From positions 2,852,001-2,916,000 of the forward strand of contig NZ_QPER01000001.1 of assembly GCF_009455635.1 (NCBI RefSeq): a DNA stretch of 64,000 nt, written 5' to 3'. Source of the stretch: Paraburkholderia agricolaris. GTDB lineage: Bacteria > Pseudomonadota > Gammaproteobacteria > Burkholderiales > Burkholderiaceae. Positions 22,352 through 46,781 of this stretch are shown here, piece by piece. A program made the position numbers and the translations under genes. The notes under the pieces were generated by a model. It worked only from the letters and a program-made list of their open reading frames with translations. It had not been told where the DNA came from and ran no database searches. Every line of letters starts with the position of its first letter. Position 1 is the stretch's first letter.

Positions 22352-22476
22352 ATGACCAAGCAGAAGCAACAGGCATCTCATCCCAAAGAAACTGCCTGTT
22401 AGCGCCGATGTAAAAATGACCCTGGCGCCGAAGTAAACCTGACCCACCTGGGAGACGATGGCGGATTTTGCCGCCG

Positions 22477-24272
<1,796 letters not shown>

Positions 24273-24587: not shown

Positions 24588-24634
24588 ATTAGTGTTGCCC
24601 CTGTGCGGGGCGGCACTTACTTTCTTTGCCGCCG
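24588..24634. repeat. Left half of a palindromic dispersed repeat, split by IS481
   Basis: Contains CCCCTGTGCGGGGC and the arm CTTACTTTCTTTGC (24616-24629). The matching arm GCAAAGAAAGATAAG lies at 25908-25922 after the IS481 element. Together they make a long hairpin around GCCGCCG. I recall this repeat as common between genes in Paraburkholderia genomes. Confidence 0.7.
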
Positions 24635-30341: not shown

Positions 30342-30342
30342 G

Positions 30343-30726: not shown

Positions 30727-30774
30727 CTCAACTCCCCTGATTACCTGATCGGTCACGCCACGCTCATCGCGCGT

Positions 30775-31662
30775 TCACTGCGCGAAGCGCTGCAAGACGC
30801 GCGGTGCCGGCTCGATACCCTGCGCGCTCGCGACCGTGCCGGTGCTGACGACTGCCCCCGTCTGCCCGACCTGTTGTTGTGGTTGTATCTGCGACCCGCG
30901 AGACAGCGCGCGCCCCGCCGCGGCCACTTTCGCCGCATCACTGCGAATCGCCGCACGCACGTCAGGCGTGAACTTCTGCTGATTCATCACCGCCAGTGCC
31001 TGAGCCTGGTCGCCACTGGCGAGCAGATAAAGCACCATGTTGCTGACGATCTTCGGATTGTTCTGATCGAGCTCGGCTGCCTTCATGAGCGGCACGCGCG
31101 CGCCGTTCACGTCGCCATCGCGCAATCGCGCATAACCGAGATCCGACAGCGTTACCGCGTCGGTCGGCGCGAGTTGCACCGCCTGCTGCAATTCCTGCGC
31201 CGCGTGCGCAAAGTCACCGGCCGCACCGGCGATCAAACCGCGTCCGCGATAGCCGCGCGCGGCGAGCGGCGTCTTCAGCAGTTGGCCGTAAGCAGTCCCG
31301 GCAGCGTCAGGCTGATCGGTCATGCGCAATGCGTCGGCGCGGAGCAAAATCGTGTCGGGGCTGACGCCGTACTGCTTTTCGTACGCGTCGATATGCGCAA
31401 GCGAAGCGAAATAAAGCCCCTGCGACTGCATCTGGTCGATCAGGCCAAGGTACATGCCGGGCGTGTCCGGCGCGGGATCCCGATTGGCCTGCTGGGCCAT
31501 CGCCGCACGCTCGGCCTGCGCGCCAACACCATAGCCCATCACGTCTTTGGACGCGCACGCGCCGAGCAGGGACAACATGGCCAGCGCCGCAGCGCAGCGT
31601 GTGGCGCGTCGCGCGGTCCGTGTGGAATACACCGGGAATTCGAACGGTAGACAGTGAGCCAT
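30775..31662 (-). CDS. tadD: TadD-like TPR lipoprotein
   Basis: 295 residues. Basic leader and lipobox LLGAC with Cys36, so an outer-membrane lipoprotein is likely. Tetratricopeptide repeats cover about 100-240 (ALRMTDQPDAAGTAYGQLL; AAQELQQAVQLAPTDAVTL; LDQNNPKIVSNMVLYLL). TadD-type lipoproteins help the RcpA secretin assemble. ATG at 31662 has AAGGA upstream; the longer frame to 31734 overlaps tadC. Confidence 0.85.
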   Translation of the reverse strand: MAHCLPFEFPVYSTRTARRATRCAAALAMLSLLGACASKDVMGYGVGAQAERAAMAQQANRDPAPDTPGMYLGLIDQMQSQGLYFASLAHIDAYEKQYGVSPDTILLRADALRMTDQPDAAGTAYGQLLKTPLAARGYRGRGLIAGAAGDFAHAAQELQQAVQLAPTDAVTLSDLGYARLRDGDVNGARVPLMKAAELDQNNPKIVSNMVLYLLASGDQAQALAVMNQQKFTPDVRAAIRSDAAKVAAAGRALSRGSQIQPQQQVGQTGAVVSTGTVASAQGIEPAPRVLQRFAQ

Positions 31663-31672
31663 TGCAAAATCC

Positions 31673-32683
31673 TTACCGATGCATCGAGAGCAGTGAATGC
31701 TGAACAGCCAGCACGCCCGGGCCGGCTGTGACAATCATCAGCGCGGGTAGCAGCGTGACAATCATCACGCCGGTCATCTTCACGGCGAGGCGGCCAATGC
31801 GTTCGCGCAGCATTGCCCGGCGCGTTTCACGCAGACGGTCACCGAACTGCTTGAGCGGTTCCTGCACGGCGCCACCGTGCCGATCGACCTGCACGAGCAG
31901 GCGCACGACCGCGCGCAAATCTTCGTTGTCGTAACTGGAAGCGAGCCGGTTCAGCGACTGCTCGCGAGTACGACCGGTCGCAAACTGACGCTGTGCGATT
32001 TCCAGTTCGCTCGACAGCACCGGCAGCATCGAGCGGAAATCGTTGACCATCACCTGCAAGCTCTGATCGAGCGACAAACCCACGCCCTGCAGCAGGCGCA
32101 ACAGATCGACCAGCAATGGCAATTCGTCGACCACGCCGGCGCGGCGCTTGCTGGCACGCCGCCTGAGTAGGATCTTCGGCAGCATGAAGCCCACGACGAC
32201 CGAGATGATCACCAGCACGACGAGGCGCGAGCCATCCAGATAATCGTGCCCCAGGGTGCCGGCCAGCGCAGGCAGCGCCAGCGCGCCCACGAGCCGCGCC
32301 ACCAGAAAGAGGCCACGCGTGCGCGTATCGATGAATCCGCATTGTTCAAGCAGCCGGCGGTCTTCTTCGGCAACGATCTGTCGGCCGAATGGTGTGTCGA
32401 GCCAGCGAATCCCGGTGTGCGCAAAGCGCTCGAGCAAGCCTTTGAAACCCTTTGGCTGCACGTTGTGCCGGACAACTTTGTCGCCCTGAACACCCTCAGC
32501 ACCGCGTGCAGCCACCGAGGCAGCCGCCGCTGCAGTCTGCAACGCGCGTTCGTCGAGCGCGTGCCTTAGCATTCGTTCACTGCGCCGTACGGCGGCCACG
32601 CGCGCCAGCACCAGCGCCGCAAGCAACAGCAGCGCGAACGCGGCAAGCGCCAGCGCGAGAGCGATGAGTTGATGGGCTTGCAT
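31673..32683 (-). CDS. tadC: Pilus-assembly inner-membrane protein TadC
   Basis: 336 residues, type II secretion F-domain protein. The N-terminal helix (about 5-30) is followed by a cytoplasmic region, paired helices near 130-170, the F-domain VVDELPLLVDLLRLLQGVGLS and a final helix pair. It forms the platform with TadB on which the TadA motor works. Start ATG at 32683, 2 bp after the tadB stop; the longer frame (to 33445) lies inside tadB. Confidence 0.88.
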   Translation of the reverse strand: MQAHQLIALALALAAFALLLLAALVLARVAAVRRSERMLRHALDERALQTAAAAASVAARGAEGVQGDKVVRHNVQPKGFKGLLERFAHTGIRWLDTPFGRQIVAEEDRRLLEQCGFIDTRTRGLFLVARLVGALALPALAGTLGHDYLDGSRLVVLVIISVVVGFMLPKILLRRRASKRRAGVVDELPLLVDLLRLLQGVGLSLDQSLQVMVNDFRSMLPVLSSELEIAQRQFATGRTREQSLNRLASSYDNEDLRAVVRLLVQVDRHGGAVQEPLKQFGDRLRETRRAMLRERIGRLAVKMTGVMIVTLLPALMIVTAGPGVLAVQHSLLSMHR

Positions 32684-32685
32684 CG

Positions 32686-33705
32686 TCACGTCCTCAGCCT
32701 CGCGAGGCGATACAACATATAGGCGCCGACCATCTGCAAGCCGAACGCCAGATAGACCAGTAGCCGCCCGGTTGGGTCGAACCACATCGAGGCGAAATAA
32801 CTCGGATTGGAGAGAATCAGAAAACCGCCAATGCCGATCGGCAGCATCGCCAGCACCCACGACGACAGCCGCGTTTCCGCCGACATCGCCACGAGTTCGC
32901 GCTCGGCCTGTTCGAGATCGCGCATGAACGAGGCCATGCGGTCGAGCATCACGTCGGCACGACCGCCGTATTTGACCGACAGCCGCAGCACCGCACCAAC
33001 CAGTTCGAGCTCGCGCACGCCATAGATCACCGCGACCTGCGAAAGCGCACGATCGATTTCGACGCCGGTGCGCAGCATTCGCGACACGTAGTCCAGGCAT
33101 TCGCGCAGCGGCGCTTCGGTGCTTTGCAATGCCGCCTGAAACGCGGCGGGTACGCTGTTGCCGAGCGTAATCAGACGCACGATGCCGTCGAGGAACAGCG
33201 GCAGTTGCCGCACGATCAGTTGACGGCGCTTGTTCGCGCGCACCGACAGCAGAAAATAAATGAACATCACGCACGCAATCAGCGTCGCGCCGACGGCCAG
33301 CAAACCACCCACCAACGCCGCCCAGGTACACAGCAACAACACGATCGCGCAAGTGATCACGACCGGCCCCTTGGACTGGGCAACGCCCGCGCGAGCCATC
33401 GCGTGTTGCAACATGAAGCGAACCCGCGCCTGCAGGTAGCGCCACTGCGCGAGCCAGTCCGCATCGGCCGGCAGAGCTTGAGGTGCGATCGCGACAGGCG
33501 CAGAGCCGGCGCGCGCAGCCGCAGCGCGCGGATTGCCCGCCGCCCCGCTCGCGAGGCCACCCGGCATCGCCACCGCCATACGGCTATCGATATAGCGTTC
33601 AGTGCTCATCTGGTCTTTGCGTTGCGTGCCACGCTGCCACAACAGCAACGCGAGCGCCGCGCACAGCAGCGCAAGCGCCGCGAAGACCAGTACCGCGCTA
33701 GACAT
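32686..33705 (-). CDS. tadB: Pilus-assembly inner-membrane protein TadB
   Basis: 339 residues, F-domain platform protein. N-terminal helix MSSAVLVFAALALLC, paired helices near 130-185, F-domain RQLPLFLDGIVRLITLGNSVP and C-terminal helices. ATG at 33705 overlaps the tadA stop by 8 bp; the longer open frame to 33813 reads through tadA's Gly-rich tail region in another frame and is not used. Confidence 0.88.
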   Translation of the reverse strand: MSSAVLVFAALALLCAALALLLWQRGTQRKDQMSTERYIDSRMAVAMPGGLASGAAGNPRAAAARAGSAPVAIAPQALPADADWLAQWRYLQARVRFMLQHAMARAGVAQSKGPVVITCAIVLLLCTWAALVGGLLAVGATLIACVMFIYFLLSVRANKRRQLIVRQLPLFLDGIVRLITLGNSVPAAFQAALQSTEAPLRECLDYVSRMLRTGVEIDRALSQVAVIYGVRELELVGAVLRLSVKYGGRADVMLDRMASFMRDLEQAERELVAMSAETRLSSWVLAMLPIGIGGFLILSNPSYFASMWFDPTGRLLVYLAFGLQMVGAYMLYRLARLRT

Positions 33706-35101
33706 TGAAGCCTCCGCCGAAACCACCGCTGCCACCGCCGAAGCCACCACCGCCGAAACCGCCGCCACTGCTGCCAAAGCCCGCGTTGCCGAAGCCGTTC
33801 TGCGCTTCGCCACCGCTCAACGCCTGACGGAAACGCGTCAGCTTCGGCGAGTGCGGATGGATGCCGAGCGAAACCCAGTTATCGAGTTCTTCGCCTTCCG
33901 CGGTTGCGATCGCCTCGTAGCGATACAGCTCCTGAGTCGCGATGATGTTGTCCGACAGACCCGTGACTTCGGTGATCGACAGAATCCGTCGGCGCCCGTT
34001 GGAAAGCCGTCCGATCTGCACGATGAAATCGATCGCGTTCGCGATCTGCCGGCGCAGGCTCGACTCCGTACCCTGGAACCCCGCGAAACCCGCCAGCATT
34101 TCGAGGCGGTACAGACATTCGCGCGGCGAGCTGGCGTGCACGGTGCCCATCGAGCCGTCGTGGCCGGTGTTCATCGCCTGCAGCATTTCGAGCACCTCGC
34201 CGCCGCGCACTTCGCCGACGATGATGCGGTCCGGCCGCATCCGCAAGGTATTGCGCAGCAGGTCCCGAATCGTCACGACGCCCGCGCCGTCAAAACCGCC
34301 CGGTCGGCTTTCGAGCCGCACCACGTGCGGGTGGTTCAGCGACAGTTCGGCCGTGTCTTCGATCGTCACGACCCGTTCCGGCTCGGGGATGTGAAACGCC
34401 AGCGCATTGAGCAGCGACGTCTTGCCCGAGCTCGTGCCGCCGGACACCAGGATGTTGCAGCGCGCGGCGACCGCCGCATCGAGCAGCGCGCCGATTTCCG
34501 GGTTGTAGGTACCGTTCGCGAGCAGATCCTCGGGACGCATCGGATCTTTGCGGAATTTACGGATCGAGACGATCGGCCCGTCGATCGACAGCGGTTCGAT
34601 CACCACATTCACCCGCCCACCGTTCGGCAAGCGTGCGTCGACCATCGGGTTCGATTCGTCCAGGCGCCGTCCGATCGGCGCGAGAATGCGCCGCACGATC
34701 CGCAACAAATGCGCGTTGTCGGCAAAGCGCACCTGAATCCTGGTCAGGATGCCGTGCCGCGACACGTACACGTCGTTGTAGCCGTTGATCAGAATATCTT
34801 CGACAGCCGGATCGGCGAGCAGATCCTCGATCGGCCCGAAGCCTGCCAGTTCCTTGGTCAGCGCCTCGGCAATCAACCTGACTTCGCTCTCGTTGATCGG
34901 TATCCGGCGCAGCCGCACGAAACTGTCCATCTCCAGATCGACGAACTGGTTGATGGCGTTGCGCGACCAGCGGCCGAATTCGGAGCCGAGTTCCTCGATC
35001 CGCGTGAGCAGATGTTCGTGCGCCGCGTTCTTGATGTCCTGGAACTGCTGGCTATGCGCGAACGAAGGCGCGTCGTCGGCAAATTCGATTTCTTTTGCCA
35101 T
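33698..35101 (-). CDS. tadA: Flp pilus motor ATPase TadA (CpaF)
   Basis: 467 residues, secretion ATPase that drives pilin assembly. Walker A GGTSSGKT (221-228), Asp box VVTIEDTAEL (244-253), Walker B DRIIVGEVRGGE (291-302), and the His box with HDGSMGTVHA (314-323). An N-terminal helical domain precedes the core. The last 40 residues are a Gly/Phe-rich low-complexity tail (GFGSSGGGFGGGGFGGG), not a normal part of CpaF. The gene overlaps tadB. Confidence 0.93.
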   Translation of the reverse strand: MAKEIEFADDAPSFAHSQQFQDIKNAAHEHLLTRIEELGSEFGRWSRNAINQFVDLEMDSFVRLRRIPINESEVRLIAEALTKELAGFGPIEDLLADPAVEDILINGYNDVYVSRHGILTRIQVRFADNAHLLRIVRRILAPIGRRLDESNPMVDARLPNGGRVNVVIEPLSIDGPIVSIRKFRKDPMRPEDLLANGTYNPEIGALLDAAVAARCNILVSGGTSSGKTSLLNALAFHIPEPERVVTIEDTAELSLNHPHVVRLESRPGGFDGAGVVTIRDLLRNTLRMRPDRIIVGEVRGGEVLEMLQAMNTGHDGSMGTVHASSPRECLYRLEMLAGFAGFQGTESSLRRQIANAIDFIVQIGRLSNGRRRILSITEVTGLSDNIIATQELYRYEAIATAEGEELDNWVSLGIHPHSPKLTRFRQALSGGEAQNGFGNAGFGSSGGGFGGGGFGGGSGGFGGGFNV

Positions 35102-35104
35102 CGT

Positions 35105-36346
35105 CTATGACCGCTTGTAAGTGGTTGGAATGAAGCGCTTGAGCGCGCCGAGCGCGGATTTGCTGCCTGTTTGCGAGGCTGCGCGCGCCGCGCCGCCGAG
35201 TCGTTCGATCAAGGGTTCGAGCGCCCGCACGTAGGGGTCGCGCGCGGCGGCATCGGCAAGCAGATGTCCCTGATTGACCGCCTGCCCGAGTGTGATGCGC
35301 CGCTCCGGCAAACTGGCCAGCAACGGAATTTCCAGCCGCTGCGCAATCTGTGCGGCGGCCAGCCCAAGGTCGGCGTCGAACTTGTTGACGATCAGTTGCA
35401 CATTCGCCGTGTCCACCCCCTCCTCGCGCAACGCGTCGAGCACGCCGACCGCCGATACGATCGAGGCAACACCCTGATCGCACAACAACCAGGTTTCGTC
35501 GGCGGCCTGCACGACGTGAGCGATGAACTCGCTATTGGTGAAGCCGCCGAGATCGACGATCTGTTGATCGAAGAATGCGCGCAGCCGGTTCAGCAGACCG
35601 ATCGACGACGAGTACGAGACCTCGCGCATATCGGCGAGATTGGGTGGCAGCGTGGTGAGCGCGAGACCGCTCGAATGATGCGACAGCGCGGTATGCACGA
35701 AGGTCTGATCGAAGCGGCGCAGATTGCGCACGGCTTCGACGAAGTTGAATTCGCTGCGCGTGTTCAGAAGCAACGAGCCGTCGCCGGCCGGCAAGCCGAG
35801 ATCAAGCAACGCGGCCTGCCGTCCTTGCGCGACGTCGCGCCGTTGCAACATCACCGCCAGGTTCGCGGCCAGCGTGCTTACCCCCATGCCGATGCGCGCG
35901 CCCAGCAACGCGGTGACGCGACCATGGCGGCTGACTGGTTCAACGAGGTTGTCCAGTACCTGGCGTGTGATCCGTAACGCGTCTTCGGCGGGTGCGGATA
36001 CGTCGATGAAATCGCGCACGCCGGCACGCAGCGCGGCCAACGCGCTTTCAGGCTCGGCGAGCGATCCGAGCGCGACGATCTGCATGCCGGGATAAGCTGC
36101 GCGCACCGCACTCGCCGCAGCACTCGCCGCGGCGGCACGGCCACCGGAAAAATCGACGAACACCAGCGACGGATTCAACGCCGCGATGCGCTGCATCAGC
36201 ATCGAGGGATCCAGTGTGGCCGCTTCGACCACGCCAGCGCCCACCAACGTATCGGCGAGCCAATGCACGTGCGCGTCGGCTAGCGACGCGAACACGAAAT
36301 AGTCGGTGACCGCCCTTTCAGTCAATGAATGCGTTCTCGCGTTCAT
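35105..36346 (-). CDS. tadZ: TadZ/CpaE-like localisation protein
   Basis: 413 residues. N-terminal receiver-like domain (about 10-130) without a clear phospho-acceptor, then a ParA/MinD-like ATPase domain. Its nucleotide loop reads GARIGMGVSTLAANLA, which lacks the signature lysines of MinD (KGGxGKT), so ATP hydrolysis may be weak or lost. TadZ proteins place the pilus machine in the cell. The start at 36346 is favoured because AAAAGG lies 9 bases upstream; ATG 36355 is three codons earlier. It precedes tadA by 3 bp. Confidence 0.85.
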   Translation of the reverse strand: MNARTHSLTERAVTDYFVFASLADAHVHWLADTLVGAGVVEAATLDPSMLMQRIAALNPSLVFVDFSGGRAAAASAAASAVRAAYPGMQIVALGSLAEPESALAALRAGVRDFIDVSAPAEDALRITRQVLDNLVEPVSRHGRVTALLGARIGMGVSTLAANLAVMLQRRDVAQGRQAALLDLGLPAGDGSLLLNTRSEFNFVEAVRNLRRFDQTFVHTALSHHSSGLALTTLPPNLADMREVSYSSSIGLLNRLRAFFDQQIVDLGGFTNSEFIAHVVQAADETWLLCDQGVASIVSAVGVLDALREEGVDTANVQLIVNKFDADLGLAAAQIAQRLEIPLLASLPERRITLGQAVNQGHLLADAAARDPYVRALEPLIERLGGAARAASQTGSKSALGALKRFIPTTYKRS

Positions 36347-36478
36347 GTTGGACATCCTTTTGCGGCATCGGCTGCCAAGCCGCCGCGTCGTACTGCCTGC
36401 CAGCCGGCCTACGCGGTTCGCGTGCCTGCTGACTCACTGCTCCACCGATCCGGCGCGCCGTTTGGGCGCCCGCCGGCT

Positions 36479-37882
36479 TCACTTCGAAAATCCCGGCACC
36501 GCATCATGCGCCGCCGCCACACCACCGATCAGCGAACGCCACACCGGGGCATTACGCTGCTCGGACTGCTCGCCCGGCGTCGTCGGCAAGGCCGCACCCT
36601 TCGCGAACGGCGACACCAGATGCGGCGTCACGATGATCACCAGTTCCTTCTCGTTCTGCTGGTAATTCAGTTGCTTGAAGAAGGTGCCGATCACCGGCAG
36701 ATCGCCGAGCAAAGGCACCTTCGCGACATTCGACGCGGTTTCGCGGTCGATCAGGCCGCCGATCACGAAACTCTCGCCGTCGCCGAGTTCGACCGTGGTG
36801 TCGGCACGGCGCGTTGTGAACGCGGGCACCGACACGCCGCTAATCGTCACGGCATTGGAGAAATCGAGTTGGCTCGCCTCCGGCGCTACCTTCAACGCAA
36901 TGCGTTGCGGACTCAATACGGTCGGCGTCAGCGTGAGCCCGACCCCATAGGGCTTGAATTCGATCGAGGTCGAACCGAGTGCCTGCGGCACCGGAATCGG
37001 TATCTCGCCACCGGCAAGGAAACTCGCGCTCTGCCCGGATAAGGCCACGAGTGTCGGCTCGGCCAGCACGCGCGCAAGGTTGTTGCTCTCCAGCAGGCTC
37101 AGGTTCGCGAACAGTCCATGCGTGGCTGAGTTGAAAACCAGGTTGAACGCCGACGAAATCGGCGTCGAACTCGTCATTTGCGGCGCCTGCCCTGCGGTTG
37201 CCGAAAGCGAGTTGAGCGCCGACGGTGCAAACGAGCCGAACGTAAAGCCGTTGTTCTGCTTGAAGAAGTTAAAACCCACCTCTTTGAGCACCGAGCGGCT
37301 GAACTCGACCACCCGCACATCGACCTGCACCACCGCGCGGCTCGCCACCGACGAGGTGTCGAACACCGCACCGTCCTTGCCGAGCGAACCTTCCGCAGCG
37401 ACCACGGCGCGCTGGTGCGCCTCCATCGTCGCGGCCGAGCCCGAGACCACCGCCGTGCTGCCGAGCACCTTGACGGCCGGCGTATCGGGCCCAAGCAGCG
37501 AGGCCGCGGCCGGCGTGATGACGTTGACCGTATAGGTCAGCGGCGCTTCGCGATCACTGGTCCACAACATCAGGTTGGTCGTGCCCGCTGCTTTGCCAAC
37601 CAGCAGCACGCCGCCACGCTTGTCACCCTTGATAATCAGCACGTCGGCCACCGCAGGGTCACCGATCGCGACACGCTTCAACGTACGGCCGGGTGCGAGC
37701 GACTGCTGCGCGCCGACCTTCAGGTCGATGGTCTGCGAGTACGCAGCTTGCGCCGCGTCGGACATCTGTGACGATTGCCCCCGCTGCACCACCGGACCCG
37801 CCGCATCAGTCGCAGCCGATAGGCCGAGCAAGGCCAACCCGAGCCACGCCGCTTTTCCGAAAACAAAATTCCGTTCTGTCAT
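36479..37882 (-). CDS. rcpA: Outer-membrane secretin RcpA (CpaC)
   Basis: 467 residues. Signal peptide, an N-terminal pilus/secretin domain (about 50-130, LAPGRTLKRVAIGDPAVADVL), a BON-like stretch and the secretin core (about 215-440: GGEIPIPVPQ, GVGLTLTPTVLSP, LGDGESFVIGGLIDRE and PLLGDLPVIGTFF). It forms the gated outer-membrane pore for the Flp pilus. It is 123 bp before tadZ and 41 bp after rcpC. Confidence 0.92.
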   Translation of the reverse strand: MTERNFVFGKAAWLGLALLGLSAATDAAGPVVQRGQSSQMSDAAQAAYSQTIDLKVGAQQSLAPGRTLKRVAIGDPAVADVLIIKGDKRGGVLLVGKAAGTTNLMLWTSDREAPLTYTVNVITPAAASLLGPDTPAVKVLGSTAVVSGSAATMEAHQRAVVAAEGSLGKDGAVFDTSSVASRAVVQVDVRVVEFSRSVLKEVGFNFFKQNNGFTFGSFAPSALNSLSATAGQAPQMTSSTPISSAFNLVFNSATHGLFANLSLLESNNLARVLAEPTLVALSGQSASFLAGGEIPIPVPQALGSTSIEFKPYGVGLTLTPTVLSPQRIALKVAPEASQLDFSNAVTISGVSVPAFTTRRADTTVELGDGESFVIGGLIDRETASNVAKVPLLGDLPVIGTFFKQLNYQQNEKELVIIVTPHLVSPFAKGAALPTTPGEQSEQRNAPVWRSLIGGVAAAHDAVPGFSK

Positions 37883-37923
37883 GTAGTTTTGGACGCGTCC
37901 GGCCGCCCGCTCCCTGAAACTGC

Positions 37924-38868
37924 TTACCAGGCGACCGTCTCGGCGCGCCCACCCCGTATCACTTCGATACCGCTCTTTGTACTATTGGTGTTGCCAGCAA
38001 CCCGCGTCGGCGGCAGCGGCACATGCGGCAGCGCCGGCCGTACACCCGCGCCTGCCGAATTGCCGCTTCCCGACAAGGCGTCGAGCGACACGCCCGCCGC
38101 GGCGCGAGTCGAATCCTGCAGCGGCGCGCTTGCGCCGGCCACCGCTGCCGTTTTCAACACGGTTGGATAGGCCGGTAACACATTCTGATCGACTACTTCG
38201 GCATCCTTGGGATTGCGCAACGCGAAGATCAAACGGCCGGCGCTTTCGGCGAGCGTCAGGCGGTCCACGTCGGCGACCGGCACAGCCAGCACCGCGGTGC
38301 GCACCATGCCGTTCGGGTCACCCGGGTTGTCACTGCTTGTGGTTGCATTGCCGAACGCGAGCACGCGCACTTTCGACATCAGCAAGCGCGCCTGGGTACG
38401 ATCGATTTCACCGCCGTTGCCAACAGCGCCGTCGCGCTTGAGTGTGAAAAACACATCGACAAAATTACCGGGCCGCAGCCGGTTACCGACCGCGTTGCCT
38501 TCGTCGACCCTCACCGCCAACGCTCGCTCACCCGGATCGACACGCTCCGCGAGCCCCGACGACAGCTGGGTTTCAAGCACCGGCGAGTCCGCACCGATTT
38601 CCGCGTTCGGCACGCGGCCGGCCAGTTGCGCCGGATCGGTAAAGGCTCCGTTCGGATTGATCGGCAGCGACTGCACACGCAGTTCGTCGACGGTAATCGG
38701 CTTGCCTGCGGGCAGCGCGTGGGTCGCCACCACCACCGGGAAACTCGCCTGCGCTACAGGGGTCACGGCAACGGGCGCCGGGCGGCGCGACAGCATCCAC
38801 GCGAACAGGCCGAGCAGCAACGCGGCTACGATCAGCACCCCTGCAAGAATTTTTGTCAGATTCGGCAT
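37924..38868 (-). CDS. rcpC: RcpC/CpaB pilus-assembly protein
   Basis: 314 residues. N-terminal helix (about 8-26), then a SAF domain (VVATHALPAGKPITVDELRVQ region; written here only as two parts, ATHALPAGKPIT and VDELRV) and an RcpC/CpaB domain with RLRPGNFVDVFFTL. It sits in the periplasm and supports the secretin. It is the first of the large assembly genes after tadE. Confidence 0.88.
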   Translation of the reverse strand: MPNLTKILAGVLIVAALLLGLFAWMLSRRPAPVAVTPVAQASFPVVVATHALPAGKPITVDELRVQSLPINPNGAFTDPAQLAGRVPNAEIGADSPVLETQLSSGLAERVDPGERALAVRVDEGNAVGNRLRPGNFVDVFFTLKRDGAVGNGGEIDRTQARLLMSKVRVLAFGNATTSSDNPGDPNGMVRTAVLAVPVADVDRLTLAESAGRLIFALRNPKDAEVVDQNVLPAYPTVLKTAAVAGASAPLQDSTRAAAGVSLDALSGSGNSAGAGVRPALPHVPLPPTRVAGNTNSTKSGIEVIRGGRAETVAW

Positions 38869-38959
38869 GACGACTCACTGCTACGGTTAAACAATGCCGC
38901 GCCGGGCGAGCGTTCGCACCCGCATGGACGGACATAAAGGCTGGGAGCCGGCGCGTGCG

Positions 38960-39457
38960 TCACTGAATATTCTCCGGGTTGAGTTGTACAGTGGCGTTGC
39001 TCGACAGTGTGTTAGGCAGCGTGATGTTCATGAGTGGCAAGTTCGGCACGATCGGACTAGCCTGATAGTTGTAGGCGAGCAGGACATTCACGCACTGCAT
39101 GGTGTTATTAGGGCCGCAGGGTGCCGAAGAAGACGTACACTGCGCGGATTTCACCAGTGTCGCGATCACTAACTTTGCTGCCGCGCAGCCGGCGTTCCCA
39201 CGATTGACGAGCGCGGTTTGCAGCGACGTGTTGGCCTGCCAGTTCAGCGCGGCGCGCGCGCCTTCTTCCGCAGCGAGCGTCAGGTTCTGCTGCGCCACGA
39301 AAATCAGACTGAAGGTCACAATCCCGTACAGAATGATGAAGAACAGCGGGAACACCATCGCAAATTCAATTGCCGTGACGCCCCGTTGCGCGCGCGCGCG
39401 CAATACCCGGACGCGCTTGAGCGGCGCGCGCGCAGCATGGATCGAACATAGCTTCAT
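38960..39457 (-). CDS. tadE: TadE-like minor pseudopilin
   Basis: 165 residues. The segment QRGVTAIEFAMVFPLFFII (about 24-42) is a prepilin-type signature with the conserved Glu after the cleavage point, followed by one helix and a periplasmic domain with four cysteines (CTSSSAPC among them). It should be cut by TadV. ATG at 39457 overlaps the tadV stop (ATGA). Confidence 0.87.
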   Translation of the reverse strand: MKLCSIHAARAPLKRVRVLRARAQRGVTAIEFAMVFPLFFIILYGIVTFSLIFVAQQNLTLAAEEGARAALNWQANTSLQTALVNRGNAGCAAAKLVIATLVKSAQCTSSSAPCGPNNTMQCVNVLLAYNYQASPIVPNLPLMNITLPNTLSSNATVQLNPENIQ

Positions 39458-39954
39458 CGCAGCCCCCCGGGCAGCCCTTGCAGCACAAGCCATGCACTGG
39501 CGGCAACGGCAAGACACGCGGCGTACGGCGTAGAGGATTTACCGGCCAACTCGAAAGTCGCGCCGGGAGAACGGATCAGACCGGCGAGCCGCGTACGGGT
39601 CGTAATCAACAGCCAGAGCGCATGCACGCCCGCGGCGAGACTGGCCGCCATCCAAAGTCCGAGCAACGCATGCATCCCGCACCACGCGCCCATGACGGCA
39701 AACACCTTGACGTCGGCAGCGCCCATCACGCCGAGTGCGAAAAATGGCAGCAACGCGACCAGACCGATTAGTGCGCCAATGCCCGCCTGGGTCAACGACA
39801 CGCCAAAGGGCCCACACTGGAGAAACGCGCAGCAGAAAGCCGCCGCCAGACCGGCAGCGACAACTGAATTGGAAATACGTCGACTGCGGCAGTCACTTAT
39901 AGCGACCACCGCAGCCCAGGCGACAAATAACAAAGTACCGACAGAGACATTCAT
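39454..39954 (-). CDS. tadV: Prepilin peptidase TadV (CpaA)
   Basis: 166 residues with about five helices. The two catalytic aspartates are seen in VAISDCRSRRISN (near residue 20) and GAADVKVFAVMG (GxxD near residue 80). It cleaves Flp and TadE pre-proteins. ATG at 39954 is chosen because the frame upstream to 39999 has no hydrophobic start. Confidence 0.88.
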   Translation of the reverse strand: MNVSVGTLLFVAWAAVVAISDCRSRRISNSVVAAGLAAAFCCAFLQCGPFGVSLTQAGIGALIGLVALLPFFALGVMGAADVKVFAVMGAWCGMHALLGLWMAASLAAGVHALWLLITTRTRLAGLIRSPGATFELAGKSSTPYAACLAVAASAWLVLQGLPGGLR

Positions 39955-40095
39955 TTCGCACTCGACAGGCGAAGCAACGCCATGCGAATTGCAATGCAAT
40001 TCGCATTAACCAATTTGGCGGTGCGTTAGAAAACGCCGACGAAGCGAACAAACGTATTAACGTCAGTCGCTCCGCTGGACGTTTACAGGTTGCCC

Positions 40096-40275: not shown

Positions 40276-40420
40276 TTTTACCCTCGGACTTTCATTTATT
40301 TCGTTTGTTTACGTGCTGCTTCGGATGACGGAGTCTTGAGCGCTACGGGACCATTGGTCTCTCATTCCTGGTCCTGCTTGTTGCGCCGCAGAAGCACCGC
40401 CTTGCAGCCGGCTTCAATAA

Positions 40421-40445
40421 AACAGATGTCTGTTAGCTGTCTGTT
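40421..40445. promoter_or_regulatory. Operator-like repeats in the flp leader
   Basis: AACAGATGTCTGTT (40421-40434) is a near-perfect palindrome with 6-bp arms, and TGTCTGTT recurs in direct orientation at 40438-40445 after 3 bp. It lies between the flp promoter and its start codon, where a repressor would block transcription. Confidence 0.45.
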
Positions 40446-40486
40446 CGATTACGCACCTCCCTCGTCAATCCTTGATGCTTTCGGGT

Positions 40487-40515
40487 TTTATAGCCGAACA
40501 ATCATATTTAAGCAA
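40487..40515 (-). promoter_or_regulatory. flp: Sigma-70 promoter candidate for flp
   Basis: Minus strand TTGCTT (40515-40510), 17-nt spacer, TATAAA (40492-40487). It lies about 210 bp before the flp start, giving a long 5' leader. Confidence 0.5.
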
Positions 40516-40682
40516 TTGTCCGCTGCCCTTAGCCCCACACCATATGCGTTTTGATGTCGTACTCAGGTTAACGGCAGTTCGTGCGTTGCAGCACATAGGA
40601 ATAACCATGAGTTAGATTCGCTGCACTAATTATTTGTTTGAACAGAACGTTTCAAGCGCAAGAAACCCTCTCGCTGCGCTTG

Positions 40683-40728
40683 CGTTACGCCGTGTTTCGT
40701 AACGGCGCGCGCGGCTCGTTACGTTACG
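40683..40728. repeat. Cluster of four CGTTACG heptamers
   Basis: CGTTACG at 40683-40689, its inverse CGTAACG at 40698-40704, and two overlapping copies at 40717-40723 and 40722-40728. The first pair forms an inverted repeat with an 8-nt gap. Position 140-190 bp upstream of the sigma-54 promoter fits an enhancer-type activator site. Confidence 0.6.
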
Positions 40729-40869
40729 CAGCCCCCGCAAACGTTTAGCGGATTGATATTCGCACGCTATATCCGAGTTAGCGGGCACTCCATCAATTCC
40801 TCGCAAAGCCATATCAGATATGGCTTCACGCCCTTCAGTAAAAAAATATCCTGCATTACTCAGTCGAAA

Positions 40870-40885
40870 TGGCACGGCTCATGCA
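40870..40885 (+). promoter_or_regulatory. Sigma-54 (RpoN) promoter before the repeat lipoprotein gene
   Basis: TGGCACGGCTCATGCA matches the sigma-54 pattern TGGCACG-N4-TTGCA with the exact GG-to-GC spacing and one change (A for T in the -12 box). Transcription would start near 40895, 40 bp before the ATG at 40935. Confidence 0.6.
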
Positions 40886-40934
40886 GAGATACGCACGCAG
40901 CAACACCCAATAACACATGCGATGCGAGGGCGAC

Positions 40935-42443
40935 ATGAACATTCAAACGGCCAACACTACAGTACGAACAACCCTGATTGCGGCCAGCGTGGCAGCGATG
41001 CTTTCTCTTGGCGCTTGCGGGGGCTCCGGAACCCTAAGTTCCGGTACCGGCAGCAACAGCACCGGCAGCGGTTCCGCCGGTGGCACCCTGTCCACCAGCG
41101 GCACCGGAGGCACCAGCGGTACCAGCGGCAGCGGCTCGATGGGTTCGGGCGGTTCCGGCTCCACCTCCGGCAGCACCAATTCGGGAAGCAGCTCGGGTAC
41201 GGACAGCGGAACGGGAACAGGTACGACCCCAGTCGCGAATGCGCTCGGCACAGTCATCGGCAATTCCAGCGGCGTGGTCAGCGATGTCGGCGCGACGGTC
41301 TCGAGCATCGGCACCGTGATCGGCTCGCAAAACCTGCCCGGCGTCAGCTCGCAAACCACCCAGGCCGCCGGCGGCATCGTGCAGCAAGTCGGCTCGGCAG
41401 TCTCGACGCTCGGCAACGGCGTATCGCAAGGACTCGGCCAACTCGGCACCGGCGGCAACGCGGTCGGCACAACGGTCTCGAGCCTCGGTGGCGTGGTCGG
41501 TCATGTCGGCGGCGCCGTGACGGACGCGGGCAACCTCGTGACCAGTCTCGGCAGCGGCCCGCTCGCGCCGTTGGCAGCGGTCACCACCCCACTCGGCGGT
41601 GTCGTCGATACGCTCGGCGGTGCCGTGACCAACGCCGGCAACACGCTCACCACCGCACTCTCGACGGGTCCGGTTCAGCAGATCACGCAAACACTCAGCA
41701 CCGCGATCACACCGATTACGTCGATGGTCGCAGCGACCACGCAGACGGTCGGCAACACGACAGGCCTCGGCGCACCGCTGAACGGTCTGCTCTCGACACT
41801 CGGCGGTGGCCTGGGCAAGGCCGGCACGCTGATAAGCGCAACCGGCGGCAATCCGATCACAGCCGCTCTTGGCCATACGGTCACCGATACGGGCACCACG
41901 GTCGCATCGTTGGGCGGTCTGCTCACCGGCGGCACCAGCGGCAATCCGCTCGCTCCGCTCACCAGCGTGCTCGGTGGCTTGACCGGCGGCTCCAGCAGCG
42001 GCCCGCTCGCCCCGCTCACCAGCGTACTCGGTGGCTTGACCGGCGGCTCCGGCTCCAGCAGCAACCCGCTCGCTCCGGTTACCGGCTTGCTCGGCGGCTT
42101 GACGGGCGGCCTTGGCGGCGCCTCGAGCGGCAGCAGCCCGCTGGCACCTGTTACCGGTCTGCTCTCGAGCGTGACCAACGGCCTGAGCAGCGCGACCGGC
42201 GGCAGCAGCAGCCCGCTTGCCCCGGTTACCGGCCTGCTCTCGAGCGTGACCGGTGCGCTCGGCGGCGTCACCACCACGGCAGCCGCCACGCCGGCCGCGA
42301 CGACCAGCACCACCTCGACCACCTCGAGCCCCGGCCTCTCGCTGTCGAGCACCAGCGGCAAGGGATCGTCGGCCAGCAACCCGCTCGCCCCGGTGACGTC
42401 GCTCCTCGGCGGCCTGCTCGGCGGTCTGGGTGGGAAGAAGTAA
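40935..42443 (+). CDS. Gly/Ser/Thr-rich repeat lipoprotein A
   Basis: 502 residues, function unknown. Signal peptide with lipobox LGAC (Cys28) and Gly at +2, which favours the outer membrane. Then a Gly/Ser/Thr linker (about 29-95), a middle domain of pseudo-repeats rich in LG, TV and SS (about 97-330), and a C-terminal set of six repeats built on PLAP[LV]T-[SG][VL]LGGLTGG (about 337-497). There are almost no charged residues and no Cys after the lipobox. Automated annotation sometimes calls such proteins collagen-like, but Gly-X-Y triplets are absent. ATG at 40935 has GAGGG; a sigma-54 promoter lies just upstream. A paralogue follows in tandem. Confidence 0.85.
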   Translation: MNIQTANTTVRTTLIAASVAAMLSLGACGGSGTLSSGTGSNSTGSGSAGGTLSTSGTGGTSGTSGSGSMGSGGSGSTSGSTNSGSSSGTDSGTGTGTTPVANALGTVIGNSSGVVSDVGATVSSIGTVIGSQNLPGVSSQTTQAAGGIVQQVGSAVSTLGNGVSQGLGQLGTGGNAVGTTVSSLGGVVGHVGGAVTDAGNLVTSLGSGPLAPLAAVTTPLGGVVDTLGGAVTNAGNTLTTALSTGPVQQITQTLSTAITPITSMVAATTQTVGNTTGLGAPLNGLLSTLGGGLGKAGTLISATGGNPITAALGHTVTDTGTTVASLGGLLTGGTSGNPLAPLTSVLGGLTGGSSSGPLAPLTSVLGGLTGGSGSSSNPLAPVTGLLGGLTGGLGGASSGSSPLAPVTGLLSSVTNGLSSATGGSSSPLAPVTGLLSSVTGALGGVTTTAAATPAATTSTTSTTSSPGLSLSSTSGKGSSASNPLAPVTSLLGGLLGGLGGKK

Positions 42444-42627
42444 GCCATGCGGCCGCAGCCGTCGAAAGAAGCGCGGTCACCAGTACCCGGAGTGCGGCCC
42501 GCCAGCTGTACTCCGGCTCTGCCGGAACCTGGCTGAATTGAGCCGCGCCGCTCAAACACCCGTTACACCGGCGCACGGAAACAACGCACACGACATCCAG
42601 AAGACACTGAGACACTGAGGAGCACAC

Positions 42628-44070
42628 ATGTCCACCCAACGTTTTTTTTCTCTCCATGCGGCATGCGCGACCGTGTCGTCGTTGCGCGCACCGTTGATCG
42701 CCGTAGCGGTCGCAGGCTTGCTCGCCGCGTGTGGCGGCAATGGCGTCACTGTGCCATCGAGCGCGTCCGGCAGCGGTAGCGCCGGCGGCGGCGGTACGAC
42801 CAGCGGCGGGCCGCCCACCACCTCGACGTCGAGCACCAACGGCGTCGCCACCGCCGCTGCAAAGACCACCAGCGACCTCGGCAACGCGATCGCCTCGCAG
42901 ACCATTCCAGGCCTCAGCCCGCAAGTCACGCAAGGTCTCGGCAACGCCGTCTCGAGTACCAGCACCACGCTGAATTCGCTCGCCAATGCGGTGAGCGACG
43001 GCGTCGGGCAAATCGGCGTGACCTCCAATCCGGTCGGCACCACGGTCGCCGGACTCGGCTCGGTGGTCAGCTCGACGAGCGGTGTCGTGCAAGGTCTGAG
43101 CACGACGGTCGGTGGCCTCGGCACCGGCAATCTCGCGCCGCTCTCGCCGCTCACCACGCCGTTGGCAAGCGTGCTTTCCACCACCGCCGGCGCGCTGAAC
43201 GCGGGTGGCGCGACTCTCGGCAATACGCTGGCCTCGGTACCGGTGCAACAGATCACCCAGCCGCTCAACACCGCGATCACACCGATCGTGCAGACCGTCG
43301 GACTCGTCACGCAGACGGTCGGCACGCAGACCGGCCTCGGCGCGCCGGTCGGCGGCCTGCTTGCGCAAATCGGCGGCGCGGTGAGTTCGGCCGGCACGCA
43401 AGTCGGCGCGACCACGAAGAATCCGCTCGGCGCCGATGTCGGCAACCTGGTCAGCTCGCTCGGCAACACGGTGACGAACGCCGGCGGCCTCGTCAATCCG
43501 AACGGCCCGAATGGCGCGAATCCGATTCCCGGCTTGATTACGAGCCTCGTCGGCAGCACCAACGTCGCCGTCGTCAATGGGCCGCCTGCCAACGGCAGCC
43601 CGTTCGGCCCGCTGCAAAACACGCTCGCGAGTCTCGGGCTCGGCAACAACCCGCTCGGCTCGGTCTCGACCCTGCTCGGCGGCACACCGCTGTCAGGCCT
43701 GACCTCGGCACTGGGCGGCACGCCCCTGAGCGCGCTGACGTCGGGAACGGGCGGCTCGCCGCTCGGTTCGCTGACCTCACTGCTGGGCGGCACGCCTTTG
43801 AGTTCGCTGACTTCGACGTTGGGTGGATTGGGCGGCACGGGTAGCGCATCGAATCCGCTGTCGTCGCTGACCGGCGCGCTCTCCGGCGTTACCAGCAGCA
43901 CCTCGGGCAGCAGCGGCGGCCCGCTCGCCCCCGTAACCGCCCTCGTCGGCCAGTTGACCGGCGCACTCAGTTCGGCGGCCGGCTCGACGAGCAGTTCGGG
44001 CAACTCCAGCAGCGCAACAGGTGGCTTGACGACACTGCTCGGCGGCCTGCTGCCGGTGAGCCATAAGTAG
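42628..44070 (+). CDS. Gly/Ser/Thr-rich repeat lipoprotein B
   Basis: 480 residues, tandem paralogue of lipoprotein A. Lipobox LAAC (Cys35). It shares the middle domain (for example VQQITQ..NTAITPI and TQTVG..TGLGAP) but its C-terminal repeats are of the form PL[SG][AS]LTS-LGG, ending in a single PLAPVT copy and a basic tail. A 184-bp gap separates it from A, with a GAGGAG ribosome site and a 9-bp tandem GACACTGA[GA] just before the start. Probable role: surface adhesin or matrix component (inferred from composition and context). Confidence 0.85.
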   Translation: MSTQRFFSLHAACATVSSLRAPLIAVAVAGLLAACGGNGVTVPSSASGSGSAGGGGTTSGGPPTTSTSSTNGVATAAAKTTSDLGNAIASQTIPGLSPQVTQGLGNAVSSTSTTLNSLANAVSDGVGQIGVTSNPVGTTVAGLGSVVSSTSGVVQGLSTTVGGLGTGNLAPLSPLTTPLASVLSTTAGALNAGGATLGNTLASVPVQQITQPLNTAITPIVQTVGLVTQTVGTQTGLGAPVGGLLAQIGGAVSSAGTQVGATTKNPLGADVGNLVSSLGNTVTNAGGLVNPNGPNGANPIPGLITSLVGSTNVAVVNGPPANGSPFGPLQNTLASLGLGNNPLGSVSTLLGGTPLSGLTSALGGTPLSALTSGTGGSPLGSLTSLLGGTPLSSLTSTLGGLGGTGSASNPLSSLTGALSGVTSSTSGSSGGPLAPVTALVGQLTGALSSAAGSTSSSGNSSSATGGLTTLLGGLLPVSHK

Positions 44071-44155
44071 TCCGCATAAGTTGCAGATCTATGCCGCGTG
44101 CATAGGACGTCGTTTCTGACGCCCCGTTACACAGTGCGCATGGCAGTTCGCCTTA

Positions 44156-44207
44156 TCACGTGCTCCGCGCTTGTGCAGATGATGCTCAAGCCCAACGGAG
44201 CACGTGA
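44156..44207. promoter_or_regulatory. Long hairpin between lipoprotein B and the TpsB gene
   Basis: TCACGTGCTCCG (44156-44167) pairs perfectly with CGGAGCACGTGA (44196-44207), and an inner GCTTG/CAAGC pair (44169-44173, 44187-44191) extends the stem. No T-run follows on either strand, so it is probably an mRNA processing or control structure, or an operator with CACGTG cores. Confidence 0.6.
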
Positions 44208-44317
44208 CGTAATACATGCAAGCATGGCAGTATGCGTCGAGCCACACATAAGCGATCGCGACCAGCCCGGCCAGGCGGCGCGTCCGCAAGACAAGAACGG
44301 CATACGAGGAAAATCCG

Positions 44318-46024
44318 ATGAAACTCGGGTACGGTAGTAAATGGACCCTCCTGCTCGCTGCGATTGCGGCAAGCGCGATGCAGGTAGACGCACAAGCGCA
44401 GTCACGCCCGGCTGGCCCGACAGGCGGCAACCCACTCGATTCGCTGCCGCAGATCAAGGCACCCGATAAGGGCCCGAACGTGACCATGCAGGTTGCACCG
44501 CAAGCCCCGCAACTTCAGGAACTGCTGGCCCGCCATCTGACGCCCTCCAAGATCCAGGTCGAGGGCGTGAAATCCATTCCGTTCGATGAAGTCGCGCAGC
44601 GCTTCACGCCGCTCGTCGGCAAGGACACCACGATTGGCGATCTGATTCAGGTCGCCAACGGCGTCACCAAGCTGTATCAGGATCGCGGCTACGCGCTCTC
44701 GTTCGCGTTCATTCCCGCGCAGACCTTCGAGGGCGGCGTGGTACGCGTGACGGTGGTGGAAGGCTACGTCTCCACGGTCAAGGTGACGGGCAAGGCGGGG
44801 GCGGTGGAAGACAAGATCCGCGCGATCGCGGACCACATCGTTGCCGACCGGCCGCTCAGGCGCGCCACCTTCGAGCGTTACGTCAATGTGCTGGGCCTGC
44901 TGCCCGGCGTGAAGGTCGCGGCCAACGTGCCGCCGCCGCAAAATACCGACGGCGCCACGACGCTCGAACTAAACGTCGATCGCAAACCGTTCGACGTCAG
45001 CACCGGTATCGACTTCAACCACCCCGGCGTGCAAGGCTTGCTGACCGCCACCGAGAATGGCCTCACCGCGCTTGGTGAACAACTGAGCGTGTCGGCCTTG
45101 CTGCCGAAGGGCCGTGACAACGTCACCTATCTCGCCGCGCACGCCACGGTGCCGATCGGCAGCGACGGCTTGATCGGGAAGATCGACGCAACGCACTATC
45201 GCGGCAATCCGGTCGACAATCCCGGCCTGCCCTCCTACATCCAGCGCACGGTCATCAACGACAAGATCGGCGGCTCACTGGCCTATCCGATCCTGCTGAA
45301 CAACAAGCAAAGCGTGATCGGCACGGCCTCCGTCTACGCGTCGCACGACGAGGACAGCTACAACAATCAGCAAACCGGCGCGCAGCTCGGCTTTCGCTCG
45401 CAGGTGCGGGTGTTGCAACTGCAGGCCGATTACGTGAACGTGGAAACCGGCCAGGTGCGCCGCGCAAGTATCACGGTAGCAAAGGCATTCGATATTCTGG
45501 GGGCATCGAAATCCGGCGACACGAACGTGCCAGGCACCACCGTCACGAATCCGGCGTCGATTAACTTCGTGCGGACCGGCGCAAGCTTTTCGCAAACCAA
45601 CGAGTGGCCGTTGAAGATCGGCACCGCGGTTTCGTTAACCGGCCAATACAGCGCCGTCTCGCTGCCGACGTCGGAACAGATCTCGTTCGGCGCGCAACGC
45701 TTCGCGCAGGGTTATCAACCGGGTGAAGCATCGGGCGATTCGGGCTGGGGCGCGATGTTCGAAGTCAACCGGGGGTTTACACCGGGCTTCACCTATCTGC
45801 GCACCTTCACGCCCTACGTGTCATTCGACATGGCCCGCGTCTACCTGCACGCGGGAACGCCATCGCCGTCGAGGCTGTCGTCGATTGCATTCGGATTCCG
45901 GATCTCGGACGCGAAGTATTACAGCCTGGACCTGTCGGTAGCCAAGGCAATCGGCGACGCGCCGGTGGAGAGCACGTCACGCAGCCCACGCATCAACGCG
46001 ACGTTCTCGTATCAGTTGAACTGA
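44318..46024 (+). CDS. TpsB/FhaC/ShlB-family outer-membrane transporter
   Basis: 568 residues. Signal peptide (cleavage near VDAQA), a proline-rich linker, a POTRA region (about 75-200: KIQVEGVKSIPFDEVAQRF and VVRVTVVEGYVSTVKVTG) and a 16-strand-type barrel ending in FSYQLN. The conserved barrel motif is seen as FGAQRFAQGYQPGEA (VRGY position reads AQGY). Two-partner systems export a large TpsA with an N-terminal secretion domain; none lies next to this gene. Upstream are two repeat lipoproteins without such a domain, downstream a DUF2147 gene. ATG at 44318 follows CGAGGAAAA. Confidence 0.87.
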   Translation: MKLGYGSKWTLLLAAIAASAMQVDAQAQSRPAGPTGGNPLDSLPQIKAPDKGPNVTMQVAPQAPQLQELLARHLTPSKIQVEGVKSIPFDEVAQRFTPLVGKDTTIGDLIQVANGVTKLYQDRGYALSFAFIPAQTFEGGVVRVTVVEGYVSTVKVTGKAGAVEDKIRAIADHIVADRPLRRATFERYVNVLGLLPGVKVAANVPPPQNTDGATTLELNVDRKPFDVSTGIDFNHPGVQGLLTATENGLTALGEQLSVSALLPKGRDNVTYLAAHATVPIGSDGLIGKIDATHYRGNPVDNPGLPSYIQRTVINDKIGGSLAYPILLNNKQSVIGTASVYASHDEDSYNNQQTGAQLGFRSQVRVLQLQADYVNVETGQVRRASITVAKAFDILGASKSGDTNVPGTTVTNPASINFVRTGASFSQTNEWPLKIGTAVSLTGQYSAVSLPTSEQISFGAQRFAQGYQPGEASGDSGWGAMFEVNRGFTPGFTYLRTFTPYVSFDMARVYLHAGTPSPSRLSSIAFGFRISDAKYYSLDLSVAKAIGDAPVESTSRSPRINATFSYQLN

Positions 46025-46298: not shown

Positions 46299-46781
46299 AT
46301 GCAATTCACTCAACACGCGCGCACGATCGCGCTTCGCACAGCCAAACATGCCGCCCTCGCCGGCGTGCTTCTCGTCAGTGCCATCACGGCGATGGCACAA
46401 ACCGATTCGCCGGTCGGCACATGGCAAACCATCGACGATCACACCGGCCAACCGAAAGCACTCGTGCAAATTACGCAGGACGGTAGCGGCTCGCTAAACG
46501 GCAAGGTGATCAAGGGACTCAATGCGAACGATCAACCGGATCGCCGCTGCACTGAATGTACGGATACGCGCAAGGACCAGTTGATTCTCGGCATGACGAT
46601 CATCAACGATATGAAAAAGGACGGCGACGGCTGGGATAACGGGCAGATTCTCGACCCGGAAAACGGCAAGGTCTACAAGTGCAAGATGCACCTGGAAGAT
46701 GGTGGGAACAAGCTGGTGGTGCGCGGCTACATTGGCGTTTCGCTGCTAGGGCGCTCGCAAACCTGGATTCGTCAGCAATAA
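46299..46781 (+). CDS. DUF2147 exported protein
   Basis: 160 residues. A signal peptide ends at AMAQ (about residue 34). The mature part has PVGTWQTIDDHTGQPKALVQ, DRRCTECTDTRKDQ (a CxxC pair) and GWDNGQILDPENGKVYKC, all typical of DUF2147. Family members are periplasmic beta-barrel-like small proteins of unknown role. Strong ribosome site AAGGAGG. The 274 bp upstream hold no gene; a terminator follows at 46884. Confidence 0.85.
   Translation: MQFTQHARTIALRTAKHAALAGVLLVSAITAMAQTDSPVGTWQTIDDHTGQPKALVQITQDGSGSLNGKVIKGLNANDQPDRRCTECTDTRKDQLILGMTIINDMKKDGDGWDNGQILDPENGKVYKCKMHLEDGGNKLVVRGYIGVSLLGRSQTWIRQQ

Follow-up and report, generated by a model that had tools for sequence, protein, structure and literature searches.

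A conserved module of Collagen_mid lipoproteins and a divergent TpsB-type transporter facing the tad locus of Paraburkholderia agricolaris

Described counterparts of the locus

The closest described relative of the locus studied here lies in Burkholderia cenocepacia J2315, in which the lipoprotein genes bcal1524 and bcal1523 are followed by bcal1522 and bcal1520 and face the Flp pilus cluster (PMC10224339). In the window, a 64,000-nucleotide stretch of Paraburkholderia agricolaris DNA (contig NZ_QPER01000001.1, positions 2,852,001 to 2,916,000), two lipoprotein genes, encoding LpA and LpB, and the gene of a TpsB-type outer membrane transporter face a tad pilus locus, and their products are the positional counterparts of BCAL1524, BCAL1523, and BCAL1522, respectively. 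The lipoprotein family and the TpsB clade co-occur almost completely among relatives, and a sigma-54 promoter is conserved in front of LpA. We consider it fairly likely that the three genes form one surface-display operon of the Tad programme, in which a devoted and divergent TpsB would display the lipoproteins.

In strain J2315, BCAL1524-1520 and BCAL1525-1537 constitute two putative operons, several genes of which were down-regulated in a cepR mutant (PMC2753556), and contact with host-membrane vesicles raised BCAL1520, BCAL1523, BCAL1524, and Flp genes (PMC7970998). BCAL1524 was detected in outer membrane vesicles, and its deletion reduced autoaggregation and virulence in wax-moth larvae, whereas the measured biofilm was unaffected (PMC10303873). 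The first-pass annotation of the window knew of no described system of this make-up, a view that these reports do not support. The two loci agree in gene order, orientation, the Collagen_mid lipoproteins, and the facing operons, and co-expression with Flp, vesicle location, and autoaggregation come from the J2315 reports. They differ in that an exporter role, a sigma-54 promoter, and co-occurrence across genera are not given in the accessible portions of those reports, where bcal1522 is annotated as a "putative exported heme utilization-related protein" (PMC10224339). We equate bcal1522 with this TpsB on the grounds of gene order and its size of 1686 bp, rather than by comparing sequences with J2315; a B. 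cenocepacia locus from another strain (L117) has the same gene order and includes a TpsB. The lipoproteins and the operon were already known, and the present analysis adds the channel devoted to them and its lack of the arginine, the joint decay of the parts, the triad in several families, and the sigma-54 sites, including those of unlinked paralogs.

Among secretion systems, two-partner secretion (TPS; FhaC/FHA, CdiB/CdiA) shares with this locus a channel with POTRA and ShlB barrel regions, a matching fold, and a channel gene beside that of the presumed substrate. The clients of known TpsB channels are large beta-helix proteins that are recognised by their TPS domain (PMC5422565), whereas the presumed substrates here have no TPS domain and are predicted to be helical and lipid-anchored, and the channel lacks the arginine of the VRGY/F motif. 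The Slam translocon is likewise an outer membrane protein encoded beside the lipoproteins that it displays; in a comparison made through the substrates as described, Slam substrates share an eight-stranded barrel domain, whereas LpA is predicted to be helical (PMC5449769). On the regulatory side, GtrR (BCAL1536), a sigma-54 activator encoded within the same tad cluster, works with RpfR in diffusible-signal and cyclic di-GMP (c-di-GMP) control, and the accessible portions of these reports do not name Collagen_mid or tpsB genes as targets (PMC9684580, PMC12838280, PMC5295037). Bacterial collagen-like proteins with Gly-X-Y repeats have the name alone in common with this family, which has short G-X-X runs and a predicted helical bundle in place of a triple helix; Collagen_mid proteins are also set apart from them in PMC10224339.

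No account of TpsB as a partner of Collagen_mid lipoproteins was found in the openly accessible PMC literature. A PF15984 protein of B. gladioli is named in one table row (PMC12724388). The collagen term had no match in the accessible portions of PMC6692535, which counts type Vb clusters of P. kururiensis by Pfam domain, or of PMC5234846, in which Flp genes are present. The term search of PMC3079749 gave BCAM0695 only, and pilus, Flp, and collagen terms had no match in the main text of PMC5979394.

The lipoproteins and the divergent transporter

LpA and LpB were both assigned to the Collagen_mid family PF15984, with scores of 223.8 and 198 bits, respectively, against a cut-off of 31.1 bits (Table 1). 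Both carry a lipoprotein signal with a lipobox and Gly at position +2, and a lipoprotein without Asp at +2 is sent to the outer membrane. The residues G, S, T, A, L, V, and P make up 89.3% of the mature part of LpA and 86.5% of that of LpB, and charged residues (D, E, K, R) number 9 of 475 and 6 of 446, respectively. A basic residue is found among the last four positions in 187 of the 193 family members longer than 350 residues. The longest G-X-X run has four triplets in LpA and three in LpB, so that the long Gly-X-Y stretches of a collagen triple helix are absent, and the TPS domain (PF05860) was not among the Pfam matches of either protein.

LpA was modelled with AlphaFold2 on 58 sequences (predicted local distance difference test, pLDDT, 64.4 for the whole model; predicted template modelling score 0.45). 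In this model, the Collagen_mid region is all-helical, with seven helices within residues 99-329 and ten-residue mean pLDDT values mostly of 73-90 between residues 111 and 330, and it is flanked by disordered Gly/Ser-rich and repeat parts. The model contains no strand and hence no Slam-type eight-stranded barrel domain, and no solved fold stood out in the fold comparison.

Up to six Collagen_mid matches per genome, including unlinked paralogs, were found in the family survey described below. The P. agricolaris genome itself holds two further Collagen_mid lipoprotein genes, C1:197105-197698 (-) and C2:804418-805014 (-) (L002, L004, L228, L229), each with its own sigma-54 site directly upstream and with no TpsB or tad match within about 16 kb.

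The transporter belongs to the TpsB type, as POTRA_2 and ShlB were both matched in 36 of 36 aligned members of its clade. Its AlphaFold2 model (pLDDT 78.5) was most similar to CdiB (6wim, E 2.8e-26) and FhaC (4ql0, 2.8e-25). The VRGY/F motif of loop 6 is called essential in FhaC, and its arginine forms a pair with a barrel aspartate (PMC5422565). This motif is replaced by FAQGYQPGE in the protein of the window and mostly by xQGY, xLGY, or xLAY in the clade, where the arginine is absent from 304 of 305 distinct sequences and present in one (1 of 369 rows). By comparison, all six other TpsB-like frames, taken from five searched genomes, have VRG or VRA. In a tree of 31 clade members and these six sequences, the branch separating the clade had 100/100 support and a length of 3.04 changes per column; the order among the six is unsure because they are long-branched.

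The first-pass annotation had described two almost uncharged repeat lipoproteins followed by a TpsB/FhaC-type transporter without any TpsA. The lipoboxes, compositions, and domain matches bear out the former parts, and the database search that it had proposed for the lipoproteins yielded the family PF15984. The absence of TpsA holds for the immediate surroundings, as no TpsA gene adjoins the locus. In the P. agricolaris genome, to which the search for TpsA was directed, two large TPS-domain frames lie about 410 and 425 kb away (C1:3300000-3322247; L006-L008, L230), and another TpsB, of the VRGF type, adjoins them; together they are a classical two-partner locus.

Linkage, co-occurrence, and sigma-54 control

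A gene of Collagen_mid type, detected with our own profile built from LpA and LpB, adjoins TpsB in 79 of 80 named loci, the exception (L101) starting at a contig end, and in all 29 further TpsB loci, whose organisms overlap with those of the 80. Among the 80 named loci, two such genes are present in 71, flp lies within the stretch in 71, and DUF2147 in 77. Lipoprotein and TpsB were retained in L106 and L121, where no tad match was found in about 8 kb upstream. Lipoprotein and TpsB are thus the tight pair of the module.

To follow the parts across the family, 398 genomes were surveyed with cut-offs set by us (TpsB, E < 1e-80; TadA, E <= 1e-150), and at most seven PF15984, three TpsB, and four TadA candidates were scored per genome. 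TpsB was found in 225 genomes and PF15984 in 222; both were present in 221 and neither in 172, with TpsB alone in four and PF15984 alone in one. When TadA was included, all three parts were present in 210 genomes and none in 169, TpsB and PF15984 only in 11, TpsB and TadA only in one, TpsB only in three, PF15984 only in one, and TadA only in three. The totals for PF15984 (222) and TadA (214) agree with the survey tallies; that for TpsB (225) has no cross-check. The near-complete co-occurrence, with five discordant genomes, supports the earlier proposal that TpsB belongs with the lipoproteins.

TpsB is broken in three of the five discordant genomes. In G117, TpsB is interrupted by an in-frame stop, PF15984 is absent, and the only TadA is distant. 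The only TadA of G177 is likewise distant, its PF15984 gene is truncated, and its TpsB is reduced to two short fragments. G342 retains the tad genes, lacks the lipoprotein, and has a TpsB without its first 203 residues. In G287, TpsB starts 261 bp from a contig end. In-frame TAG stops were also observed in TpsB of four fragmented drafts of genus g10 (G179, G272, G167, G297), and since three of these have no close TadA, the triad may decay together there. Four of the 11 TadA-less genomes were inspected: G061 and G262 have tad genes next door, G371 is at a contig end, and the tad locus of G242 lacks its middle. In the last (L231, G242:C4:301000-320000), the prepilin peptidase gene leads directly to TadD and the activator frames are split; the frames of TpsB and of the first lipoprotein remain long.

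An order-wide search of 300 genomes, some of them family members, gave nine above the PF15984 cut-off. Four of the nine lie outside the family, and all four have a clade TpsB and nearby tad genes in differing gene orders; G454, below the cut-off, has neither. The genes run as lipoprotein-TpsB-flp in a single direction in L155 and L157, TpsB and the lipoproteins diverge from flp in L158 and L159, and two diverging lipoprotein genes lie between TpsB and flp in Cupriavidus- and Ralstonia-type loci (L164, L167-L170). TpsB stands alone in two Pandoraea-type genomes (L165 and L166, two of two loci); their lipoprotein genes are found some 2 Mb from it, at no more than 10 kb from TadA, and in G109 three of these genes face the tad cluster (L220). 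All three parts were kept in both Pandoraea-type genomes, and in a genus-mate without the lipoproteins and this tad, TpsB is broken. Among 72,556 plasmid records, the same five hold a close TpsB (43-67% identity) and a lipoprotein, about 1.5 kb apart at most; three Azospirillum plasmid records contain TpsB only, at 25-26% identity.

The site TGGCACGGCTCATGCA lies 49 bp upstream of the LpA start codon, which is preceded by GAGG, and its -12 box has one mismatch (ATGCA against TTGCA). In all 71 flp-lipoprotein intervals, including that of the window, a sigma-54 score of at least 16.2 of 18.2 was obtained towards LpA, and none of the 71 reached 16 towards Flp. Fixed 200-nt leaders were then scored with a threshold of 16 of the maximal 18.2. 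The threshold was reached by 60 of 60 LpA orthologs, 1 of 60 LpB, 0 of 80 TpsB, and 2 of 400 random pieces, although the 60 LpA leaders are not independent because the loci are related. The 60 comprise every one of the 80 named loci with assignable starts for both lipoprotein genes; the starts of 204 lipoprotein frames were assigned by the lipobox rule, L004, L133, L151, L190, and L199-L203 were left out for want of a start, and L161, L177, and L238 are uninformative stretches. A score of 16 was also reached by 14 of 21 lipoprotein leaders from more distant loci and from unlinked genes, compared with none of eight flp or tpsB leaders; two of the 14 have their site well upstream of the frame start, at about 280 nt in L168 CM+ and about 370 nt in L220. 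A site was present at six of eight unlinked Collagen_mid genes (L002, L004, L132, L146, L148, L154).

The tad locus across the 659-bp control region looks complete, as annotated earlier. Flp, the prepilin peptidase, TadE, the secretin, TadZ, TadA, TadB, a TadD-like protein, and TadG were identified by sequence or profile; two further frames are presumably CpaB and TadC by their position in the usual tad gene order. The activator gene, present as annotated earlier, has homologs at the end of all 13 tad clusters examined. Its product carries the motif GSFTGA. The earlier assignment to the VpsR class did not stand, since the best solved relative over the full length is 7vbs/7vbw (857 bits) and VpsR scored far lower (110.9 bits). 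By position, the activator is probably GtrR, and it probably acts on the LpA promoter. Together with the co-expression in B. cenocepacia, the conserved site and the activator support the earlier suggestions of a promoter directed into the first lipoprotein and of regulation together with the pilus.

Proposed route to the surface and surrounding features

In the proposed display route, LpA and LpB, synthesised with lipoprotein signal peptides, would be acylated and routed to the outer membrane, through which the divergent TpsB clade devoted to the Collagen_mid family would carry them. Held by the lipid and a flexible Gly/Ser linker, the helical Collagen_mid domain would be exposed on the surface together with the PLAPVT-LLGGLTGG tail, and the displayed lipoproteins may help cells stick together beside Flp pili. 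Through the sigma-54 promoter, on which the GtrR-like activator probably acts, expression would be coupled to the pilus as well as to diffusible-signal/c-di-GMP control. The products of the unlinked Collagen_mid genes, most of which have the same kind of promoter, would probably use the same TpsB channel. More tentatively, and with a slight lean against it, we suggest that the arginine-less TpsB clade may be a separate type V-like branch that exports several helical, lipid-anchored, and nearly uncharged clients without a TPS domain, whose genes lie both next to that of the channel and at other sites of the genome, within a sigma-54/GtrR regulon shared with Tad. If display by TpsB is correct, helical lipoprotein clients would widen the scope of this channel class and add, beside Slam, a second means of bringing lipoproteins to the surface, and the clade would offer a natural arginine-less variant for the question of the role of loop 6. 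Such display would moreover account for the surface arrival of Collagen_mid proteins, proposed adhesins and antigens in cystic-fibrosis-associated bacteria, and join them with Tad pili and a quorum/c-di-GMP-linked activator in one programme.

Several observations weigh against this display route. Most of the co-occurrence reflects linked genes inherited as a block, and its cut-offs were picked after the match lists had been viewed. G233, a 500-contig draft, is an unexplained exception, with TpsB and TadA and no PF15984 found, and TadA occurs without TpsB or PF15984 in G260, G006, and G036. Sigma-54 sites were not found at two of the eight unlinked Collagen_mid genes scored (L147, L153) or at the two unlinked TpsB genes (L165, L166), and seven of the 21 distant or unlinked lipoprotein leaders scored below 16 (L157, L162, L163, L167 CM+, both of L169, L170 CM+). 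LpA and LpB, predicted to be helical and without a TPS domain, are unlike known TpsA substrates, and the loss of an arginine from a motif called essential in FhaC means that the channel may work otherwise or not translocate. The detection of BCAL1524 in vesicles indicates the outer membrane and not necessarily the surface (PMC10303873).

TpsB might instead serve the Tad pilus itself, for example by moving or assembling a pilus-associated protein, with the lipoproteins as separate co-regulated passengers. TpsB and TadA do occur together in 211 of the 398 genomes, the triad stays together in several families, and some of the TadA misses are artefacts, as in G061 and G262. We regard this explanation as unlikely, as the discordance is lower for TpsB and PF15984 (5 of 398) than for TpsB and TadA (17 of 398; 14 with TpsB only and three with TadA only). 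Moreover, lipoprotein and TpsB persist without tad genes in the local stretches of L106 and L121 and beside the incomplete tad locus of G242, and the tad cluster of G260 has neither beside it. Equally improbable in our estimate is that the locus belongs simply to the known class of Collagen_mid adhesins and that TpsB either is a relic or serves a classical TpsA encoded elsewhere; any surface exposure of the lipoproteins would then come about in a different way. In favour of this explanation are the two TPS-domain frames of the same genome, the relaxed specificity ascribed to one TpsB family of Burkholderia (PMC10449530), and the lost arginine. However, the TPS-domain frames have their own VRGF-type TpsB adjoining, as the proposed check for a distant TpsA revealed, and the clade TpsB tracks PF15984. 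In addition, conservation of the clade over several families and the profile matches in all aligned members argue against a relic.

It is very unlikely that LpA and LpB remain periplasmic or in the inner leaflet, where they would chaperone or organise the Tad secretin, and that TpsB is a BamA-like assembly factor and no secretion channel. The proximity to the secretin gene, the missing arginine, and the all-helical prediction would agree with such a role, but the number of Collagen_mid matches per genome exceeds the need for pilotins, and surface proteins typically have such repeat tails and Gly/Ser linkers. In addition, the counterpart BCAL1524 affects autoaggregation and not the biofilm tested (PMC10303873).

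The features of the window are listed in Table 1. LpA, LpB, TpsB, and the DUF2147 gene share one direction, in that order.

Table 1. Coordinates of the lipoprotein-TpsB module, the tad locus, and adjoining elements in the window
Feature	Position	Strand	Evidence
LpA, Collagen_mid lipoprotein, 502 aa including Met	40935..42443	+	PF15984 2.3e-66; lipobox LGAC
LpB, second Collagen_mid lipoprotein, 480 aa	42628..44070	+	PF15984 1.8e-58; lipobox LAAC
TpsB-type divergent outer membrane transporter, 568 aa	44318..46024	+	POTRA_2 3.3e-21, ShlB 9.5e-10; CdiB/FhaC fold
DUF2147 protein, frequent passenger	46299..46781	+	PF09917 1e-33; 77/80 named loci
Sigma-54 promoter TGGCACG-N4-ATGCA, drives LpA	40870..40885	+	interval and leader scoring
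Divergent control region flp/LpA, 659 bp	40276..40934		
Flp pilin, 59 aa	40096..40275	-	
tad locus overall	28527..39999	-	frames and Pfam
TadV (prepilin peptidase)	39454-39999	-	
TadE	38960-39517	-	
CpaB	37924-38868	-	named by position, no profile run
Secretin	36479-37882	-	
TadZ	35105-36355	-	profile match slightly below cut-off
TadA	33698-35101	-	
TadB	32686-33813	-	
TadC frame, putative start	31673-33445	-	named by position, no profile run
TadD, TadD-like TPR protein	30775-31734	-	
TadG	28527-30383	-	
Sigma-54 enhancer-binding activator, probable GtrR (BCAL1536) ortholog	27120..28511	-	Sigma54_activat 1.4e-63; PDB 7vbs 2.9e-257

A DUF2968 gene (26356-27072, -) follows the activator gene, and nine of the 13 other tad clusters inspected contain a match to it. 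Next to the DUF2147 gene lies a piece of an IS4/5-type transposase (DUF4096; 46945-47394, -); a similar frame occupies the same place in L106, and the transposase gene bcal1519 is listed at the same side of the J2315 locus (PMC10224339). Just past the far end of the tad cluster, an IS21-type istA/istB pair and an integrase-core transposase were observed at 22468-25822.

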